Assembly: GCF_005116455.1 (NCBI RefSeq)
Contig: NZ_SWBP01000004.1
Coordinates: 310,001 to 374,000 of the forward strand
Direction: 5' to 3'
DNA length: 64,000 nucleotides
Source of the DNA: Pedobacter cryophilus
Lineage (GTDB): Bacteria; Bacteroidota; Bacteroidia; Sphingobacteriales; Sphingobacteriaceae
The notes below the pieces were generated by a model. The model did no database searches. It saw only the letters and a list, made by a program, of their open reading frames with translations, and was not told the origin of the DNA. Made by a program: the position numbers and the translations under genes. Below are positions 5,343 to 60,554 of the stretch, piece after piece (within the stretch, counting starts at the first letter, position 1; every line of letters starts with the position of its first letter).

Positions 5343-6060
5343 TTTTATATTTTCTGAGCATGATTTTAAATTTAAACTTGGCCACATCATAAGTTAAACC
5401 TCCAATAAGAAATAATGCTGCTATTAACAATGAGTATAGCTCAATATAATGGTAAAGAAATCCTCCAAAAACACATCCGGTAAAGAAAAACAGAATAATC
5501 ATCAACCTTAACCTGATAGATGATTTTAAACGAGCAAGCTGTGCTGGTTCTCTAAAGTAAAACAGCTGCGCCAGCTCAATACCTAAATCTGTAAATAAGC
5601 CGGTAAGGTGCGTGGTTCTTACTACCGAATTGGATATTTGCGTTACTAAAGCATTTTGCATCCCCATGGCAAATAGTAAAAAACAAGCAATTAAAACAGC
5701 ATGAAATTGCACAAAGTGGTTTCCTAAAATAGGGATAGCTACTAAAATAGAAGCCTCTAATAGAATAGGAATTATGTTGGTTAATCTTAGGTTTATTCTC
5801 GAAATACTTTCTACCAATAAGCTAGATATAAATGCGCCTGTAAAAAATGATAAGATAAAAAGGAGGTAATGAACGGCGTTCAGGTATTGTTTCTTTCCAA
5901 TTTCTTCGGCAAAAAAAGCAAAGTGGCCAGTAACATTAGTCGTCAATTCATGAATAGCAAATATTCCCGTTACATTTACTATTCCGGCGACTAAAGAAAG
6001 TAAGGCTGCTAGTTTTAAATTATGTAGAAAAGTTCTGCTTTTTCCGGTATGCCTAAACAT
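5332..6060 (-). CDS. YoaK/DUF1275 family membrane protein
   Basis: A 242-residue protein with about six hydrophobic segments. The family hallmark is near the N-terminus: LLSLVAGIVNVTGIFAIHE with TTNVTGHFAFF, then a long segment FAMGMQNALVTQISNSVVRTTHLTGLFTDLG that is typical of DUF1275. Function of the family is not established; some members have been suggested to be transporters. The gene is monocistronic and its 3' end overlaps that of the binding-protein gene by 11 bases. Confidence 0.8.
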   Translation of the reverse strand: MFRHTGKSRTFLHNLKLAALLSLVAGIVNVTGIFAIHELTTNVTGHFAFFAEEIGKKQYLNAVHYLLFILSFFTGAFISSLLVESISRINLRLTNIIPILLEASILVAIPILGNHFVQFHAVLIACFLLFAMGMQNALVTQISNSVVRTTHLTGLFTDLGIELAQLFYFREPAQLARLKSSIRLRLMIILFFFTGCVFGGFLYHYIELYSLLIAALFLIGGLTYDVAKFKFKIMLRKYKIKT

Positions 6061-10874: not shown

Positions 10875-10933
10875 ATTTTTTTGAAAAGCAAGGTTCTTCG
10901 CTTTTTTGTGCCGATAGTCCCGCTATTCATTAC

Positions 10934-10967
10934 AATGCCCACGCTAAAAAAGCTGTGGGCATTTTCA
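10934..10967 (+). terminator. Probable terminator downstream of amn
   Basis: AATGCCCAC (10934-10942) pairs with GTGGGCATT (10955-10963), followed by TTTTC. Outer arms CCGATAG and CTATCGG extend the fold. Confidence 0.65.
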
Positions 10968-11425
10968 TTGCTATCGGGTTTATGATATTCAGGTTCTCCT
11001 TTATTTAAAAAATCCGAACGCTGCATCATAGAGTCAAAGGATTTCTAATGAGTTTGTCATGCTGAGCGGAGTCGAAGCATTTATTCAGAGTTGTAATGCT
11101 ATTGTAGATTCGACAACTTTTTTGCCAACGTGATTAGAAAGTTGTCGAATCTTTATTATGCTGAGCGAAGTTGAAGAATCCAATTTTATGTCCTGCTGAG
11201 CGAAGTCGAAGCATCTCCATCCAGATTTGTTATACTAGTGTAGATTCGACAACTTTCTTGCAGACGTGATTAGAAAGTTGTCGAATCTTTATTAATTAAC
11301 TAAAAGAATGAAAATTAAATAAAACCTCAACGGTAGCGGAGTTGAAGCATTTTCCATTACGTTTGTCATGCTGAGCGGAGTCGAAGCATCTTTATTGTAA
11401 TCATAGACCAATTCGAAGCACCCCT
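10968..11425. repeat. Intergenic cluster of CTGAGCG-type repeats and two long inverted repeats
   Basis: CTGAGCGGAGTCGAAGCAT or close variants occur near 11062-11080, 11159-11181, 11196-11214, 11332-11350 and 11371-11389. Between them lie two related hairpins: GATTCGACAACTTT (11107-11120) with its exact complement at 11138-11151, and a 16-base perfect pair at 11243-11258 and 11272-11287. The two hairpins share their loop sequence (ACGTGATTAG), so one is a copy of the other. No coding sequence is visible. Confidence 0.8.
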
Positions 11426-17250: not shown

Positions 17251-17850
17251 TTAAAAGCGGATGACACATCCTTTATATTTAGAAGTTCCAGATGCGCTAA
17301 AAGCTAACATCTGGAACAGCTTGGGAAGCTGGTGGTATTCATCTAGTTTAACATCAATATAAGCGATATGGCGTTCAATCTTAGCAGGATTGAAATTGTT
17401 CTTTTTAGAATTCTGCGCCCTCAATTTGGTGCTGTCACCCGCCAGGAGTTTACCGCCAATCAGATCGAAATTATTAGCTAAGGCTACTGTAGCATGAAAC
17501 ACCTTGCGTATGGCTTTAGGATGATCTTTTCTGAAATTGGCAATAGTATTATGATCGGGAGCCAAACCTTTCATGAGCCACATCAGTTCGATATTACGTC
17601 TGCATTCCTTTTCTAGCTGACGGGAAGAACGGATACGGTTAAGGTAACCGTAGATGAAAAGACGCAACAGTTCAGCAGGGTGATAGGCTGGTCTGCCGTT
17701 ATCAATAAAGTCCATCTCAAAACCATAGTCTTGAAGTTTGATGGAGGAAACAAATAAATCAATCAGACGAACCTCGTTATCTTGAGCTATTGCTTGTTCT
17801 AAGCAGAAAAACTCCGTTTGGTTCCTGTCTTTTCCAATGATGAATTTCAT
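17251..17850 (-). pseudogene. Internally deleted IS1182/IS5-type transposase
   Basis: 199 residues, under half of the ~480-500 expected. The first ~170 residues are the DUF772-type N-terminal domain (DFIDNGRPAYHPAELLRLFI, NIELMWLMKGLAPDHNTIANF, DSTKLRAQNS). The rest of the catalytic domain is missing and replaced by a 22-residue tail (...SKYKGCVIRF) encoded by a separate repeat (17250-17321) that also occurs at 13585-13656. That tail contains a 10-bp inverted repeat, GTTCCAGATG with CATCTGGAAC. It cannot be an active transposase. Confidence 0.8.
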
Positions 17851-17913
17851 ACTTGAAAATACAAAATAGCCACCTTTTTACATCATCAGCCACCTTAGAA
17901 GTTATCATTAATT

Positions 17914-17931
17914 GTGGAAAACAGATTGGAG
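17914..17931 (-). repeat. Gene-tail repeat, fragment G
   Basis: Only the end of the repeat (GTGGAAAACAGATTGGAG) is left; it lies 23 bases before the palindromic site at 17954. Confidence 0.4.
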
Positions 17932-17953
17932 GTTTTTAGACAGTTTGACGTTT

Positions 17954-18075
17954 GGCAAGTTTGTACTGAAATGGCGTTAAAGCATTACTAATTTCAGCTT
18001 GCATAAACTTAATTAATTTGCAGAAAGTTATTTCAAGCAGGTCAGCCATTTTTGTACAAACTTGTTGTTAGCAGC
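17954..18075 (-). other. attC-like palindromic site next to the protease unit
   Basis: A 22-base arm at 17954-17975 (core CAAGTTTGTAC) is the imperfect complement of 18045-18066 (18 of 22 positions). The mismatches are at the outer end and in the middle, as in folded attC sites. It ends in GTTAGCAGC (18067-18075), five bases from the stop of the protease-like gene. On the minus strand the gene is therefore followed by ...TAAC and a palindrome, the order of an integron cassette. The distal R-box partner is not evident. Confidence 0.45.
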
Positions 18076-18080
18076 TGGCT

Positions 18081-18725
18081 TTATTTTATATATTCCAAAT
18101 ATCCTGTTGTATTTAACGATTCTTCAATTTGTTTTTGCGAAAGACTTTTAGTTGGTGATAACAAAATCTCTTTTGAAAGCATTTCTATTGAATTCCAAAC
18201 GTTTTCCTGTTGAAATATTAAAGCGATTCTTTCAAGTTCGTTTGCAATATAATTTATGTCATGTGTTTTTGAGTTTAGCGATGAAAGTAAGCTATTGATA
18301 CTCAGAACCCTAGTAAGGTCTGGCCCTGAAATTTCAATTTCTAATTGGCCTTTAAAGTCACTTCCGCTTTTAAATAGATGTTCGGCAACTGAACCCCCTA
18401 ATAATGTTCCGCCTATTTTGATTGCGGCTAATTGCGTTTGAGATTTTAAATTTGCCGGAAGTGAATTATACATTTCAGAATCTTCATTGAAGGTAACAAT
18501 CGCAGCTATTAATATATTTATATTATAATTTCCATAATTAAATTTTGTAAAAGCATTTCCAGAACCATCTTGTAACAAAGTTACATTCTCGCATGTGAAA
18601 CCAGACAGATATGCCATTAAAATATGCCCACTTTCATGATAAGCATTTTGCTCTTCTTGGTTAGATTCCATTTTTAGTTTGTTACCAGGAGCTAAAATTG
18701 AAAATATTTTTTTAAGAATATTCAT
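18081..18725 (-). CDS. M41 (FtsH-type) peptidase-like protein without AAA+ domain
   Basis: 214 residues. The zinc motif HESGH is at residues 30-34 in NAYHESGHILMAYLSGF, as in the M41 peptidase domain of FtsH, but there is no AAA+ ATPase and no membrane anchor. A later acidic residue in the stretch AVTFNEDSEMYN or GSVAEHLFKSGSDFKG may supply the third ligand. Small stand-alone M41-like proteins of this kind have no fixed role. It is 19 bases downstream of the unknown gene at 18745, likely one operon, and the pair is bordered by GTTAGCAGC and GCTGCTAAC. Confidence 0.65.
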   Translation of the reverse strand: MNILKKIFSILAPGNKLKMESNQEEQNAYHESGHILMAYLSGFTCENVTLLQDGSGNAFTKFNYGNYNINILIAAIVTFNEDSEMYNSLPANLKSQTQLAAIKIGGTLLGGSVAEHLFKSGSDFKGQLEIEISGPDLTRVLSINSLLSSLNSKTHDINYIANELERIALIFQQENVWNSIEMLSKEILLSPTKSLSQKQIEESLNTTGYLEYIK

Positions 18726-18744: not shown

Positions 18745-19191
18745 TCATTTTATCGAATTTATTATTTTGGTGTGTAATTCTTTTAATTTGTTATTTGCCT
18801 GTGGTATTTCTAAAAATATACCAAGAGATTTACTCTCTTGTTCATTATGTGTTTTTCTAGTCATTTGAGCTCGATCATCCAAAACTATTCGACCCAATTT
18901 ATCTTTACTACTTTCCTCAACAGTCACAAACGAGTGAGAAATTGTATCTCTTAAATTCCTCAAATTAACTCCATTTATAAATTCCTCCGATAAATCAAGT
19001 TGTGGCATTTTTGAGGGCATTCCTGAATCAAGTTGGTCGCTAGTTGCGTATGGAATTAACAAGTATAGTGCAATTATTTCACGTACACCTGGTACTAAAA
19101 GAATACTATCATTTCCATCTAAAATATTCTGGGCAATTTCTGAAAGGAAAATAGAATGTTCTCTAAAATTAGTATCTCTGTCTTTAATCAT
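18745..19191 (-). CDS. Unknown protein, partner of the M41-like gene (HEPN-like motif)
   Basis: 148 residues, no recognised family. Predicted mostly helical. The segment NLRNLRDTISHSFVTVEE contains R-x4-H (RDTISH), the spacing of HEPN active sites, but this is a short motif and could be chance. It is upstream of the M41-like gene with a 19-base gap, so the two products may act together, for example a protein released or inactivated by the protease (speculation). Confidence 0.55.
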   Translation of the reverse strand: MIKDRDTNFREHSIFLSEIAQNILDGNDSILLVPGVREIIALYLLIPYATSDQLDSGMPSKMPQLDLSEEFINGVNLRNLRDTISHSFVTVEESSKDKLGRIVLDDRAQMTRKTHNEQESKSLGIFLEIPQANNKLKELHTKIINSIK

Positions 19192-19260: not shown

Positions 19261-19317
19261 GCTGCTAACTAGTATATATGCGCTACCTATAGCGTATATA
19301 TTTCATATATGTTAAGC
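19261..19317 (-). other. Palindromic att-like site adjoining the recombinase gene
   Basis: The plus strand starts GCTGCTAAC (19261-19269) and ends GTTAAGC (19311-19317, which fits GTTRRRY). Between them TATATGCGCTA pairs with TAGCGTATATA (10 of 11). On the minus strand the site reads GCTTAAC - stem - GTTAGCAGC and directly precedes the two-gene protease unit. It ends 17 bases from the recombinase stop codon, a sensible place for the platform's attachment site. Confidence 0.45.
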
Positions 19318-19333
19318 AATATAGCATTTGATT

Positions 19334-20761
19334 TTAAATATTTAGGCTGTCTAACGGACTTTTAATTAAACTAATTTGCTTTGTACTTACATAAGTATAT
19401 ATTTCTGTGGTTTTTGTACTACTATGTCCTAATAGTTGTTGTATGTATCTAATATCTGTACCTGCTTCTAATAAATGGGTTGCAAATGAATGCCTAAGCC
19501 AATGTAGGGTAGGTTTTTGCCTTATACCCGCTTTTCTGCAAGCTTCATTTAGCACTTGTCTTAAAGAACTTATGGCGTATTGATCGCCATATTGGCCTTC
19601 AAACAAATATATTTTCGGTTTAAAAAGCAAGTAATATTCTTTCAGTAGCAATAAAAGTTTTTCAGAAAGCATCACTTTCCTGTCTTTATTTCCTTTTCCT
19701 TTAGTAACAGAAATAAGCATACGTTTACTATCAATATCTAAAACTTTCATATTAATAATTTCCCCTGCTCTTAAGCCGCAACTATAAAGCATACTTAGCA
19801 TAGTTTTATGTTTAAGGTTGTTGCAATTATTTAATATTTTTTCTACTTCTTCTTTTGCCATTACTTTTGGTAAAACACGTTCTTTTTGGGGTCTAATGAT
19901 TTGATTTTTATAATCTTGTTTATTTAATATGTTCTTATAGTAGTATAATACTGCATTTATTAAACAGTGAGTTGTGCTTGTACTAAAATAATTGTGGCTA
20001 GCCATTTTTAAAACAATATCATTTACATTTTGAGGGCTTAAACTTGTGAGCTCTTTATTTATGCTTTTGCAATAATAAATGAAATTGAAAAATGAAGAAT
20101 AATAGCCATGTATGGTATTTAAGCTATAGTTATTAGATTTTAAATGGCTTAAATACTCATTGGGTAGTAAAATATCAGTAATGTAACTTTGTTTCCAAAA
20201 TATAGATTGTAGGTATAAACTTTGAATATTGATATGTTGGTGCAAGGCAACAAAAACTTTCCCTTTAATAGCATTAAGTAGTTTTAAAAGATTAATTTCT
20301 TGCATGGGCATTAAAAATGCTGATAGATTTCTATTGTAGGTAATAAAGTCTAATTCTAATAATTCCTTTTTACAAGCTAAAATATGGTCTGTTGTGATAA
20401 GGTAATATTTGTTGTTTTCTATGATTGCGTTTTTAACTATTACTCTAAGTTTGAAATCATACTTTGGAATTTCAAACCTAGGTAAGGCATGTTGTGGTTC
20501 TAATTGAGCCTGAGTGATAGGTAACCTATGAAAACTATTTTTATTAATAGCCAATCTTCCTTTTGCAGCAATTTGTATAGCATCTAATATCTCTTCTTTT
20601 GCATCTGTAAAAAGTATTTTTTTTGAATAATCATATTTGAAGTAATTTAAAGACAAAAGCCATTTAAATAGGGCTGGATTTTTAAAAAAGGTGTATTTGT
20701 AAATTTCTTTATTATTGTGAGAAATGGCTTTTACATATAGTTGAATTGGTTTTTGTTCCAT
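19334..20761 (-). CDS. Tyrosine recombinase with a long N-terminal extension
   Basis: 475 residues. The catalytic domain is complete: Arg331 (YSCGLRAGEI), Lys354/356 (VTKGKGNKDR), His420-x-x-Arg423 (LHWLRHSFATHLL), His446 (LLGHSS) and nucleophile Tyr455 (TTEIYTYV). A SAM-like core-binding domain occupies about 195-285 (ILLPNEYLSHLKSNNYSLNT). Residues 1 to ~190 form an extra N-terminal part of unknown fold, absent from XerC/XerD. VLPKVMAKEEVEKIL resembles XerC/D and IntI, but the extra IntI helix between patches is not present. No phage genes are nearby. It is on the same strand as the cargo genes that follow at its 3' side. Confidence 0.88.
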   Translation of the reverse strand: MEQKPIQLYVKAISHNNKEIYKYTFFKNPALFKWLLSLNYFKYDYSKKILFTDAKEEILDAIQIAAKGRLAINKNSFHRLPITQAQLEPQHALPRFEIPKYDFKLRVIVKNAIIENNKYYLITTDHILACKKELLELDFITYNRNLSAFLMPMQEINLLKLLNAIKGKVFVALHQHINIQSLYLQSIFWKQSYITDILLPNEYLSHLKSNNYSLNTIHGYYSSFFNFIYYCKSINKELTSLSPQNVNDIVLKMASHNYFSTSTTHCLINAVLYYYKNILNKQDYKNQIIRPQKERVLPKVMAKEEVEKILNNCNNLKHKTMLSMLYSCGLRAGEIINMKVLDIDSKRMLISVTKGKGNKDRKVMLSEKLLLLLKEYYLLFKPKIYLFEGQYGDQYAISSLRQVLNEACRKAGIRQKPTLHWLRHSFATHLLEAGTDIRYIQQLLGHSSTKTTEIYTYVSTKQISLIKSPLDSLNI

Positions 20762-21326
20762 TTTTAGAATAAATGAGTTGTTTTTACTCTAAGTTATAAT
20801 GGATTGTAGAAAATAGTCGTGTATAAACAGATATATCCGTTTATATCCGGATATACATGGATAAAGATTCGCTAATGAAATTAAGGCCTAATTAAAAATA
20901 GTGTAAAAGGCAAAATTTTGATTTGAAATTTATGGACGAGTTTATTCTTTTGCGCTACAATATTGGGCAATTGTAAAGCTATTTCTGTATAGGACAAATA
21001 TAGGGCAATATGCTATGAGTTCGGTATCGGGTATGGGCGTGTTCAGTACGTCTTCGGTCATCCTACGTTGAGGAACGTAGGATGACCGAAGGAAGCCACA
21101 AAGAGTACTGTCTCTATGCCGAGCAGATGCAAGTAGGTTGCACTATCCTGAGTTAAATAAACCTGATGGAAATGGATACCGGCCAAGCGCCTAATGCCTG
21201 TGTGCGTATGAATGTACAGCGGGGCTGGCGATACTAAAGAGTTGATGGCTTGGCTTTTTCCCAAATAGATTCCTTTGGAACTAAAAATTCCCTATTTTCA
21301 CAGCGGAAACATTTTTAACATTCGAC
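20762..21326. other. Intergenic region between recombinase and fabG with palindromes
   Basis: The recombinase promoter should be here. ATATCCG occurs as direct and inverted repeats around the perfect 14-base palindrome TATATCCGGATATA (20842-20855), a possible operator or binding site. Further on lies a large hairpin (21044-21110). CCTGAGTTAAATAAAC (21148-21163) recurs in reverse orientation near 48152. A minus-strand frame at 21058-21264 covers the hairpin and is not protein-like. Confidence 0.6.
21044..21110. repeat. Long perfect hairpin with outer stem
   Basis: The 18-base arms 21052-21069 (starts CTTCGGTCATCC) and 21074-21091 are exact complements around a 4-base loop; CAGTAC (21044-21049) and GTACTG (21105-21110) can close an outer stem. 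Not followed by a T-run. Could be the relic of an insertion element or a structured RNA. Confidence 0.7.
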
Positions 21327-22070
21327 ATGAAATTATTAGAAGGAAAAACCGCTTTAATTACCGGTGCATCTAAAGGAATTGGAAGAAAAATTGCTGAAAA
21401 ATTTGCCGAACATGGTGCAAATGTGGCTTTTACTTATTTATCATCGGTAGAAAAAGGATTGGCTTTAGAAGAAGAATTAAAATCTTTTGGTACGCAGGTA
21501 AAAGGCTACCGTTCTGACGCTTCAAAATATGACGAGGCAGAAAAGCTGATTGGCGATATAGTTAATGATTTTGGGACGATTGATATTGTGGTAAACAACG
21601 CCGGAATTACCAAAGATGGTTTGCTGATGCGTATGAGTGAAGAGAATTTTGATGATGTGATTGAAGTGAATTTAAAGTCGGTTTTTAATACCACCAAAGC
21701 GGCTTCTAAAATAATGATGAAGAACCGTAAAGGGGTTTTTATTAATATGAGTTCTATTGTTGGGGTGCAGGGAAATGCTGGTCAGGCTAATTATGCAGCT
21801 TCTAAAGCGGGTATTATTGGTTTCTCTAAGTCGGTAGCTAAAGAATTAGGTTCTAGAAATATTAGGACTAATGTAGTAGCGCCAGGGTTTATAAAAACAG
21901 AAATGACTGATGTTTTAGACCCTGAAGTGGTGAAAGGTTGGGAAAAAGATATTCCGTTAAAAAGAGCAGGCGAAACAGAAGATATAGCCAATGTTTGTGT
22001 GTTTTTAGCTTCGGATATGAGCGCTTATATTACCGGACAGGTGATTTCTGTTTGTGGGGGAATGTTGTAA
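21327..22070 (+). CDS. fabG: 3-oxoacyl-[acyl-carrier-protein] reductase
   Basis: 247-residue short-chain dehydrogenase. It reduces 3-oxoacyl-ACP with NADPH in fatty-acid elongation. The cofactor motif is TGASKGIG (14-21); NNAG follows; the catalytic Ser (MSSIVG), Tyr and Lys (YAASKAG) are all present; and the C-terminus AYITGQVISVCGGML is the usual FabG ending. General SDRs can look alike, but length and the typical MRMSEENFDDVIEVNLKS and MTDVL segments favour FabG. It is followed by a short tandem repeat. Confidence 0.88.
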   Translation: MKLLEGKTALITGASKGIGRKIAEKFAEHGANVAFTYLSSVEKGLALEEELKSFGTQVKGYRSDASKYDEAEKLIGDIVNDFGTIDIVVNNAGITKDGLLMRMSEENFDDVIEVNLKSVFNTTKAASKIMMKNRKGVFINMSSIVGVQGNAGQANYAASKAGIIGFSKSVAKELGSRNIRTNVVAPGFIKTEMTDVLDPEVVKGWEKDIPLKRAGETEDIANVCVFLASDMSAYITGQVISVCGGML

Positions 22071-22212
22071 TTAGTATCAAGATATTAGTATCAAGTATCA
22101 AGATATTAGTATCAAGTATCAAGATTTTAGTATCAAGTATCAAGATATTAGTATCAAGTATCAAGATTTTAGTATGAAGTATCAAGATATTAGTATCAAG
22201 TATCAAGACATA
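22070..22212. repeat. 21-bp tandem repeat (about six units)
   Basis: Unit AGTATCAAG-TATCAAG-ATATT, with the last T/A varying (ATATT or ATTTT) and one AGTATGAAG variant. It begins right after the fabG stop codon and ends 17 bases before the next reading frame. The unit contains the heptamer TATCAAG twice. Slipped-strand length variation is likely. Confidence 0.9.
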
Positions 22213-22276
22213 AGATTAAAGAGTTGGGATGAAAGTTCTGGCTCTTTTTTTGTTTAAATTGCTTAAAAATATAGCT

Positions 22277-60347: not shown

Positions 60348-60418
60348 AGCCGGACACAGTCCTTTGTTTTCATTTTAGATTTATTGATCCTGAAAAAGGA
60401 ACACGTAAACCAGATTGG
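60348..60418 (-). repeat. Gene-tail repeat, copy F
   Basis: AGCCGGACACAG, TTTCATTTTAGATTTATTGA, TCCTGAAAAAGGAACAC and AAACCAGATTGG. Same orientation, relative to its minus-strand gene, as copies A-D 43 kb away. Confidence 0.75.
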
Positions 60419-60554
60419 TAACGTTTTGCAGATTTGAGAATTTACGGCTTTTCTTGCAAAAACTTGTCTGCCCGCATTAAATTTAGTAAAAAGTGATGAA
60501 GGCGCATAAAGTACTTCTCCCGCAATTTTTTAAACCTGTGGCTATGCGCCGTTA
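60419..60554 (-). other. attC-like palindromic site next to the 60.6-kb gene
   Basis: Ends TAACG (60419-60423) and CGTTA (60550-60554) are complements; GGCGCATA (60501-60508) pairs with TATGCGCC (60543-60550); GTTTTGCA (60423-60430) faces TGCAAAAAC (60455-60463). The site ends six bases from the stop codon of the gene at 60561. On the other side of the gene is GCATAAC (61045-61051). Confidence 0.4.

Follow-up and report, generated by a model that had tools for sequence, protein, structure and literature searches.

Does the palindrome just behind a tyrosine recombinase gene in this Pedobacter DNA serve as the primary attachment site for new cargo, as a preliminary description had suggested, and if so, to what kind of system does it belong? 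Our analysis of the window (the whole stretch of DNA analyzed, 64,000 nucleotides long) and of related loci indicates that the palindrome at 19261-19317 is very probably the attI of an integron-like system on the chromosome of this member of the Bacteroidota, with recombination being inferred and no experiment performed.

The sequence confirmed the palindrome with the letters and location first given. On the minus strand, GCTTAAC (19317-19311) is followed by the hairpin TATATACGCTA/TAGG/TAGCGCATATATA and then by CTAGTTAGCAGC, which extends to 19261. The site indeed adjoins the 3′ end of the recombinase gene (19334-20761, minus strand), from whose stop codon it is separated by 16 nt. Taken alone, the hairpin is unremarkable for AT-rich DNA, with folding z values of -0.62 and -0.75 on the two strands and a best-stem z of 1.1 for the 19261-19317 palindrome. 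The features of the locus, and a second site of the same type, are as follows.

19334-20761, minus strand: tyrosine recombinase P0001, 475 aa; R331, K356, H420, R423, H446 and Y455 present, no IntI-specific insert
19311-19317, no strand assigned: GCTTAAC/GTTAAGC of the preliminary description; not conserved in other copies
19269-19314, minus strand: putative attI core, repeated in the genome (ten copies) and found at the same position behind relatives of the recombinase
Within 19273-19300, minus strand: palindrome arms of the putative attI
19268-19269, minus strand: inferred crossover G^TT, from the junction profile over 33 loci; cargo differs beyond it
19261-19269, minus strand: 1R box, GTTAGCAGC, opening the first cassette; exact reverse complement of the 1L box (18067-18075)
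18745-19191, minus strand: first cargo ORF, 148 aa; unmatched in Pfam and NCBIfam at E 0.01
18081-18725, minus strand: second cargo ORF, 214 aa; M50-peptidase-like Pfam match below the cut-off
18067-18075, minus strand: 1L box, GCTGCTAAC, at the cassette end, right after the second cargo ORF
17950-18075, minus strand: attC of the first cassette; covariance-model match at 17941-18075, 63.1 bits, E 6.8e-13
17251-17949, minus strand: remnant of an IS1182-type element; its start coincides with the junction between attC and the next cassette
17251-17850, minus strand: transposase fragment (DUF772) of the IS1182-type remnant
60414-60549, minus strand: lone attC of the same type, 90.3 bits, E 4.1e-19

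When a cassette is inserted into an integron, its attC is opened at G^TT, leaving the 1R box at the start of the cassette and the 1L box at its end. On the cargo side of the palindrome, the minus strand reads G^TTAGCAGC (19261-19269), whose exact reverse complement lies at 18067-18075, at the end of a two-gene cargo. It is at this second box, where the first cargo ends, that an attC-type hairpin starts, and directly after the 1L box the attC arms CAAGTTTGTAC/GTACAAACTTG and AAATGGC/GCCATTT are paired. Judged from the sequence alone, the split of start and end boxes around the window cargo is the signature of an integron cassette. The proposal of a primary attachment site is thus supported by a cassette with matching start and end boxes that begins exactly there, but the core had been misplaced. 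The preliminary description took the plus-strand GTTAAGC as a match to GTTRRRY, whereas the G^TT lies on the minus strand at 19269/19268, beside the cargo, and the GTTAGCA at that junction does not fit GTTRRRY. Because the outer GCTTAAC/GTTAAGC is missing from the other copies in the genome, we rejected it as the core; it is probably non-functional.

The window contains only one clean cassette. The second cargo protein was found in one of 121 family genomes, namely its own, and neither cargo protein matched an immunity family in Pfam or NCBIfam. No partner box upstream of the lone attC at 60414-60549 was found within the window, nor did the 10.7-17.96 kb region contain a further box pair except for a single 10-mer, which is probably fortuitous. 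Rfam yielded no match at attI or attC in four sources and two unrelated hits, both in the window.

Several other elements were observed in the same DNA. The same IS1182-type element occurs twice at an exact attC/next-cassette junction, at 17949/17950 of the window (minus strand) and at 5764/5765 of another locus (L193); it carries an open frame of 531 aa in the latter and the DUF772 transposase fragment in the former. Its ends read GTCAAACTGTCTAAAA and TTTTTAGACAAACTGAC, and at two more loci (L026 and L029) an attC is followed by a similar GTCAGGYTGTGAAAAAA. The element looks like an attC-targeting IS. A repeat family around CTGGTTT..TTCCTTTTTCAGG occurs at 13.5-16.7 kb and 60389-60413 of the window, near toxin-antitoxin-like genes and adjoining the lone attC. 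The window also contains a tandem repeat with 21-bp spacing around AGTATCAAGATATT (22052-22242), a perfect 18-bp inverted repeat with a 4-nt loop beyond the start of the recombinase gene (21052-21091), and a match to Flavo-1 RNA (10912-10985, minus strand; 52.1 bits against a gathering score of 42).

Recurrence of the junction in relatives and within the genome

Relatives of the recombinase were represented by 55 loci from named genomes and, in searches at E 1e-60, were detected in 14 of the 18 genomes of the genus and 50 of the 301 genomes of the family, with the own genome counted in both. Many of these relatives have, just 3′ of the recombinase stop codon, a stretch that is often palindromic, ends in TATA....AG^TT and is followed by other genes. 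Fifty-three loci were eligible for a search for box pairs (non-duplicate, with at least 600 nt of 3′ DNA; the window is among them, as are a fragment of a recombinase and a Xer from the same genome). In 33 of them, a GTT within the first 300 nt begins a stretch of 9-10 nt whose exact reverse complement lies where the first cargo ends. Box pairs occurred at 4 of 130 other GTTs of the same 33 loci, and with boxes swapped between loci in 24 of 1056 combinations for 9-mers and 15 for 10-mers. Since the longest match per locus was chosen among several GTTs, the fair yardstick is a few times 3% per locus. No box pair was detected in the other 20 eligible loci, some of which belong to other sub-groups (beside a single-strand-binding-protein gene, or from Carboxylicivirga).

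The 33 junctions have a common profile: T at -9 in 30, A at -8 in 32, T at -7 in 28 and A at -1 in 28, with GTT in all 33 by construction. All four letters precede the G^TT at 25 of the 33 junctions, compared with 9 of 883 other GTTs. The GTT is always followed by a purine (27 A, 6 G), after which no purines are fixed. In a sample across the class, the TATA....AG^TT motif lies no more than 200 nt 3′ of 24 of 29 recombinases but in only 1 of 367 control blocks, and a box pair within 1.5 kb was found at 9 of the 22 recombinase loci with enough DNA. Hairpin strength at attI varies among loci (z > 2 in 14 of 33, control 2 of 33). The same layout, with other cargo, thus stands behind many related recombinases, which favors a primary attachment site. 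Identical downstream cargo in all relatives would have refuted the preliminary description; this was not the case, as a comparison of 32 window ORFs, both cargo ORFs included, with eight related loci (E 1e-8) matched the recombinase and one distant ORF only. In the synteny comparison of the window integron with G004, only the recombinase and one distant ORF matched, too little to speak for or against synteny.

Within the 4 Mb genome, the pattern TATACGCTANNNGTAGCGYATANNNANTAG occurs ten times when up to two mismatches are allowed (four copies with none, five with one and one with two), whereas a reversed-pattern control does not occur at all. AG^TT follows the palindrome in all ten copies, and the sequence then differs; two of the ten have the first ten letters TTAGCAGCAA in common, but not the genes. 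A box pair of 8-10 nt is present within 1.5 kb in seven copies and absent in three. The block common to the copies measures about 46 bp, corresponding to 19269-19314, and does not include the outer GCTTAAC. Ahead of the junction, two copies still have 105-130 nt that extend, with 86% identity, into the 3′ end of the recombinase gene; these copies therefore look like remnants of further integron platforms. There is one close copy of the recombinase in the genome, and nine of the attI copies are located away from any full recombinase gene of the P0001 kind; that these nine each have other cargo also favors a primary attachment site. At a number of loci in two contigs of this genome (G000 C1 and C9; L192-L200, L202 and L204), single cassettes or small attC clusters away from the recombinase start at an orphan attI.

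attC hairpins and their distribution

Tracing the boxes from cassette to cassette yields arrays with 35 complete attC among 68 chain links, and chains reach at least six consecutive attC (L079). Measured from box to junction, 24 of the 35 complete attC span 115-123 nt; the other 11 span 30-64 or 133-199 nt and are partly doubtful. We built the attC alignment and a covariance model (R1) from the 24 sites of 115-123 nt, all from other genomes, excluding both the 11 other spans and the window. The consensus hairpin has 16 pairs, all 16 of which are supported by compensatory changes (alifold), and the arms are paired in blocks separated by unpaired positions. In an arm-pairing test of 33 sites, from which the two shortest spans were excluded, arms paired at -15.3 kcal/mol with their own partner, as opposed to -8.9 kcal/mol with swapped partners, and the own partner was the best in 18 of 33; one arm pair is unpaired (-4.2 kcal/mol, rank 33 of 33). 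R1 recovered both the attC of the first cassette and the lone attC of the window, and detected 15 sites in the whole genome. In 27 relative loci it scored 97 sites at E ≤ 0.1; this number includes 22 sites of the training set and three antisense shadows. In R388 and 30 IntI loci, it detected nothing above 26.6 bits.

R1-type attC were present at E 1e-5 in 150 of 198 sampled Bacteroidia genomes under stricter filters, so that recombination sites of the window type occur in most sampled genomes of a class thought to be nearly free of integrons. They were also present in 15 of 30 IntI-bearing genomes of other classes; this attC type is therefore not exclusive to recombinases lacking IntI features. 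IntI itself scored over the cut-off in 1 of 395 sampled Bacteroidia genomes and had no match over the cut-off in the own genome. In a wider sample of the phylum, 105 of 395 genomes had IntI over the cut-off, with G336 being the only one of the same class among the matches listed. The family profile A2 matched 195 of 395 Bacteroidia genomes at E 1e-80, a count that takes in relatives without attI as well. A survey requiring IntI initially reported nothing but In0 elements from Bacteroidetes, and subsequently a single complete integron, from Salinibacter (IntegronFinder 2.0, PMC9024848); two other papers name Bacteroidota or the Bacteroidetes/Chlorobi group among integron carriers (PMC8618304, PMC2426708). 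Our literature search found no report of integrons with insert-less recombinases in Bacteroidia, most subscription papers and preprints being outside its reach.

The recombinase and the choice between explanations

P0001 has an open frame with its catalytic residues kept, and fits neither of the closest curated families by score: it reaches 196.8 bits for integron integrase (TIGR02249, cut-off 265) and 198.8 bits for XerA (NF040815, cut-off 220). The distance between two alignment points is 82-91 residues in 61 sequences (59 of the P0001 family, that of the window among them, and two Xer from the same genome), in contrast to 126 in all 31 IntI, IntI1 of R388 among them. When the solved IntI4 (2A3V) is aligned to P0001, a gap falls at the position of the insert. 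The IntI-specific insert has been described as the feature that defines IntI (PMC9668308), and a subgroup of integron-like recombinases with incomplete conservation of the insert has been noted (PMC8138268).

At its N-terminus, P0001 has two repeats (residues 5-73 and 105-173) with confident predicted models. In many relatives, which lack about 100 residues of this length, the alignment covers only one N-terminal repeat. For this domain, Foldseek found nothing at E 0.001, and the best VIA-align match was the N-terminal part of XPB (Z 6.2, rmsd 2.4, 57 residues), with eIF1-like folds close behind. All of these matches of the predicted structure stay under the level of kinship and are weak leads only, leaving the kinship of the repeats uncertain; the same holds for the Pfam matches to the N-terminal domain of two relatives, HARP in one (E 0.14) and DUF5710 in another (E 5.9e-5, below the cut-off). 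In a phage collection, 56 records were retrieved, none of them covering over 80% of the query. In the tree, IntI forms one clade (100/100), sister to L032 and L036 (98/94) among the insert-less rows. Should this topology hold, IntI would be a derived branch that carries the insert within an otherwise insert-less set. Given weak deep forks (83/28, 94/87), a long-branch warning and a midpoint root, the direction of evolution remains unsettled.

Other explanations of the palindrome have to be weighed against these data. If the palindrome were merely a transcription terminator or a REP-like hairpin behind the recombinase gene, with no part in recombination, its position just past the stop codon and its modest stability would be accounted for. 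What is conserved, however, is TATA....AG^TT at the cargo edge and not a hairpin plus T-run, the nine copies away from a full P0001-type gene all end in AG^TT before other sequence, and a complementary box lies about 1.2 kb off, at the cargo end. We rejected this reading on account of the conservation at the cargo edge, and we give it next to no credence. Nor do we see much prospect for the attachment site of one integrated element, be it a phage, an ICE or a transposon, with the recombinase as its integrase and no integron platform. A recombinase beside its own site is typical of integrated elements too, and an IS remnant lies nearby, but in relatives many short cassettes, every one with an attC, are lined up in arrays, the site has ten copies with other cargo, and the only mobile-element proteins among the scanned window proteins are the recombinase and the IS transposase fragment.

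It is hardly more plausible that a true IntI from another locus mobilizes the arrays, with P0001 a nearby Xer-type bystander. The attC could be used in trans, and the R1 type recurs in half of the IntI-bearing genomes of other classes that were searched (15 of 30). Against this, no IntI exceeded the cut-off in the own genome or in 394 of 395 sampled Bacteroidia, and in 24 of 29 cases the attI motif accompanies the 3′ end of a P0001-type recombinase. A former attI whose system is now a relic, with one clean cassette, an IS in its attC and orphan attI merely inherited, is unlikely but deserves more serious consideration. It would explain the single clean cassette with an IS remnant at its attC, the single close recombinase copy in the genome and the three of ten attI copies without a box pair. 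Decay would, however, be expected of unused sites, and perfect box pairs of 9-10 nt persist at several loci; nine of the ten palindromes are within one mismatch of the pattern, and the recombinase frame is open with the catalytic residues present. The genome may still be partly relic: in the window, an IS remnant sits precisely at the junction that comes after the first attC.

We therefore retain the reading of 19261-19317 as the attI of an integron-like system. The position and recurrence of attI, the 1R/1L split, the attC hairpins with compensatory changes, the arrays, the variable cargo and the absence of the IntI-specific insert can all be read from the DNA as it stands. It is inferred that P0001 is the enzyme responsible, that attC is recombined in the form of a folded single strand and that G^TT is the exact crossover; so are a contribution of the N-terminal repeats to what the missing insert would do and a service in trans to the nine other attI. 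In the proposed reaction, the attC of a circular cassette would fold from one strand into a hairpin, and the recombinase at attI, which has the same direction as the cargo, would join the G^TT of this cassette to its counterpart in attI; insertion would open the cassette, splitting attC so that 1R comes to stand at the start and 1L at the end. Cassettes are thus most likely captured at 19269/19268 by recombination between attI and folded attC, as IntI does. Neither excision nor insertion has ever been observed, and recombination between attI and attC is inferred.

The system behaves like an integron yet fails the IntI-insert test. With some reserve, we favor the broader view that Bacteroidia have their own widespread integron lineage, which never had or needed the I2 insert and reads its attC hairpins otherwise, possibly via the N-terminal repeats; several attI per genome would collect cassettes in parallel, and rAID arrays, perhaps also the neighborhood of tet(X), would be branches of this lineage. 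Integrons are the best known natural gene-collecting platform. Escudero and colleagues state a 'chicken-egg paradox': how attC could have been selected when no domain yet existed to read it, and how that domain could have been selected without attC (PMC4792948). A working integron without the I2 domain would, if true, bear directly on this paradox, and it would provide gut and soil Bacteroidota with a shared way to swap immunity and accessory genes.

Comparison with known systems

The outer boxes of integrons follow the consensus RYYYAAC/GTTRRRY, and an inverted orientation of the integrase gene is known from the chromosomal integrons of Treponema. The system described here resembles chromosomal integrons in having a tyrosine recombinase beside attI, a G^TT junction, cassettes that begin with 1R and finish with 1L, folded attC with internal unpaired positions, co-oriented arrays, and attC clusters away from the integrase gene. 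It thereby meets three of the features by which integrons are recognized: an attI next to the integrase gene with a G^TT junction, cassettes with outer attC boxes split between start and end (33 of 53 loci, exact over 9 nt in the window), and an attC hairpin with unpaired positions whose structure is kept while its sequence varies. Two others are not met, namely the additional domain specific to IntI, which P0001 lacks, and the consensus of the outer boxes, since the 1R box of the window reads GTTAGCAGC and boxes of this type are GTTR, not GTTRRRY. The system also differs from chromosomal integrons in the extra N-terminal repeats of the recombinase and in the location of attI at the 3′ end of the recombinase gene.

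The best sequence and fold neighbors of the catalytic part of P0001 are XerA and archaeal Xer (NF040815, 4a8e and 5hxy). Membership in XerA is not met, the score being under the curated cut-off, and, unlike XerA, P0001 stands at an attI with cassettes and has an N-terminal extension of about 200 residues.

A short recombinase relative, tnpF (51.4% identity to residues 268-475), occurs on plasmid pHH1107 (L127, 6628-8101), where it is followed by an attI-like palindrome, then by tet(X) and then by what appears to be the 5′ portion of an attC. There is no match between the boxes at the start and at the end of the tet(X) unit. The gene may once have been a cassette of such an integron-like system.

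Gut Bacteroidales carry recombinase-associated acquired interbacterial defence (rAID) systems, in which a tyrosine recombinase stands at the head of short orphan immunity genes that share one orientation and are separated by conserved spacers. These combine a tyrosine recombinase with an array and conserved intergenic motifs, and the word 'integron' does not occur in the portion of the rAID text that was available (PMC12247911). A Bacteroides ovatus plasmid (L126) encodes a recombinase with 41.9% identity to P0001 over residues 174-469, behind which short co-oriented genes form a rAID-like array, several of them annotated as immunity genes. Start/end complementarity of 8-9 nt at C^ATTA or CC^ATTA was present in the spacers at 11 of 25 candidate starts, one of the 11 being a run of A, compared with 4 of 74 other ATTA; this is the cassette logic of the window, but with short attC. 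The plasmid array thus resembles the window in its recombinase and in its complementary cassette ends, and differs from it in having an ATTA rather than a GTT junction, short spacers, and immunity cargo.
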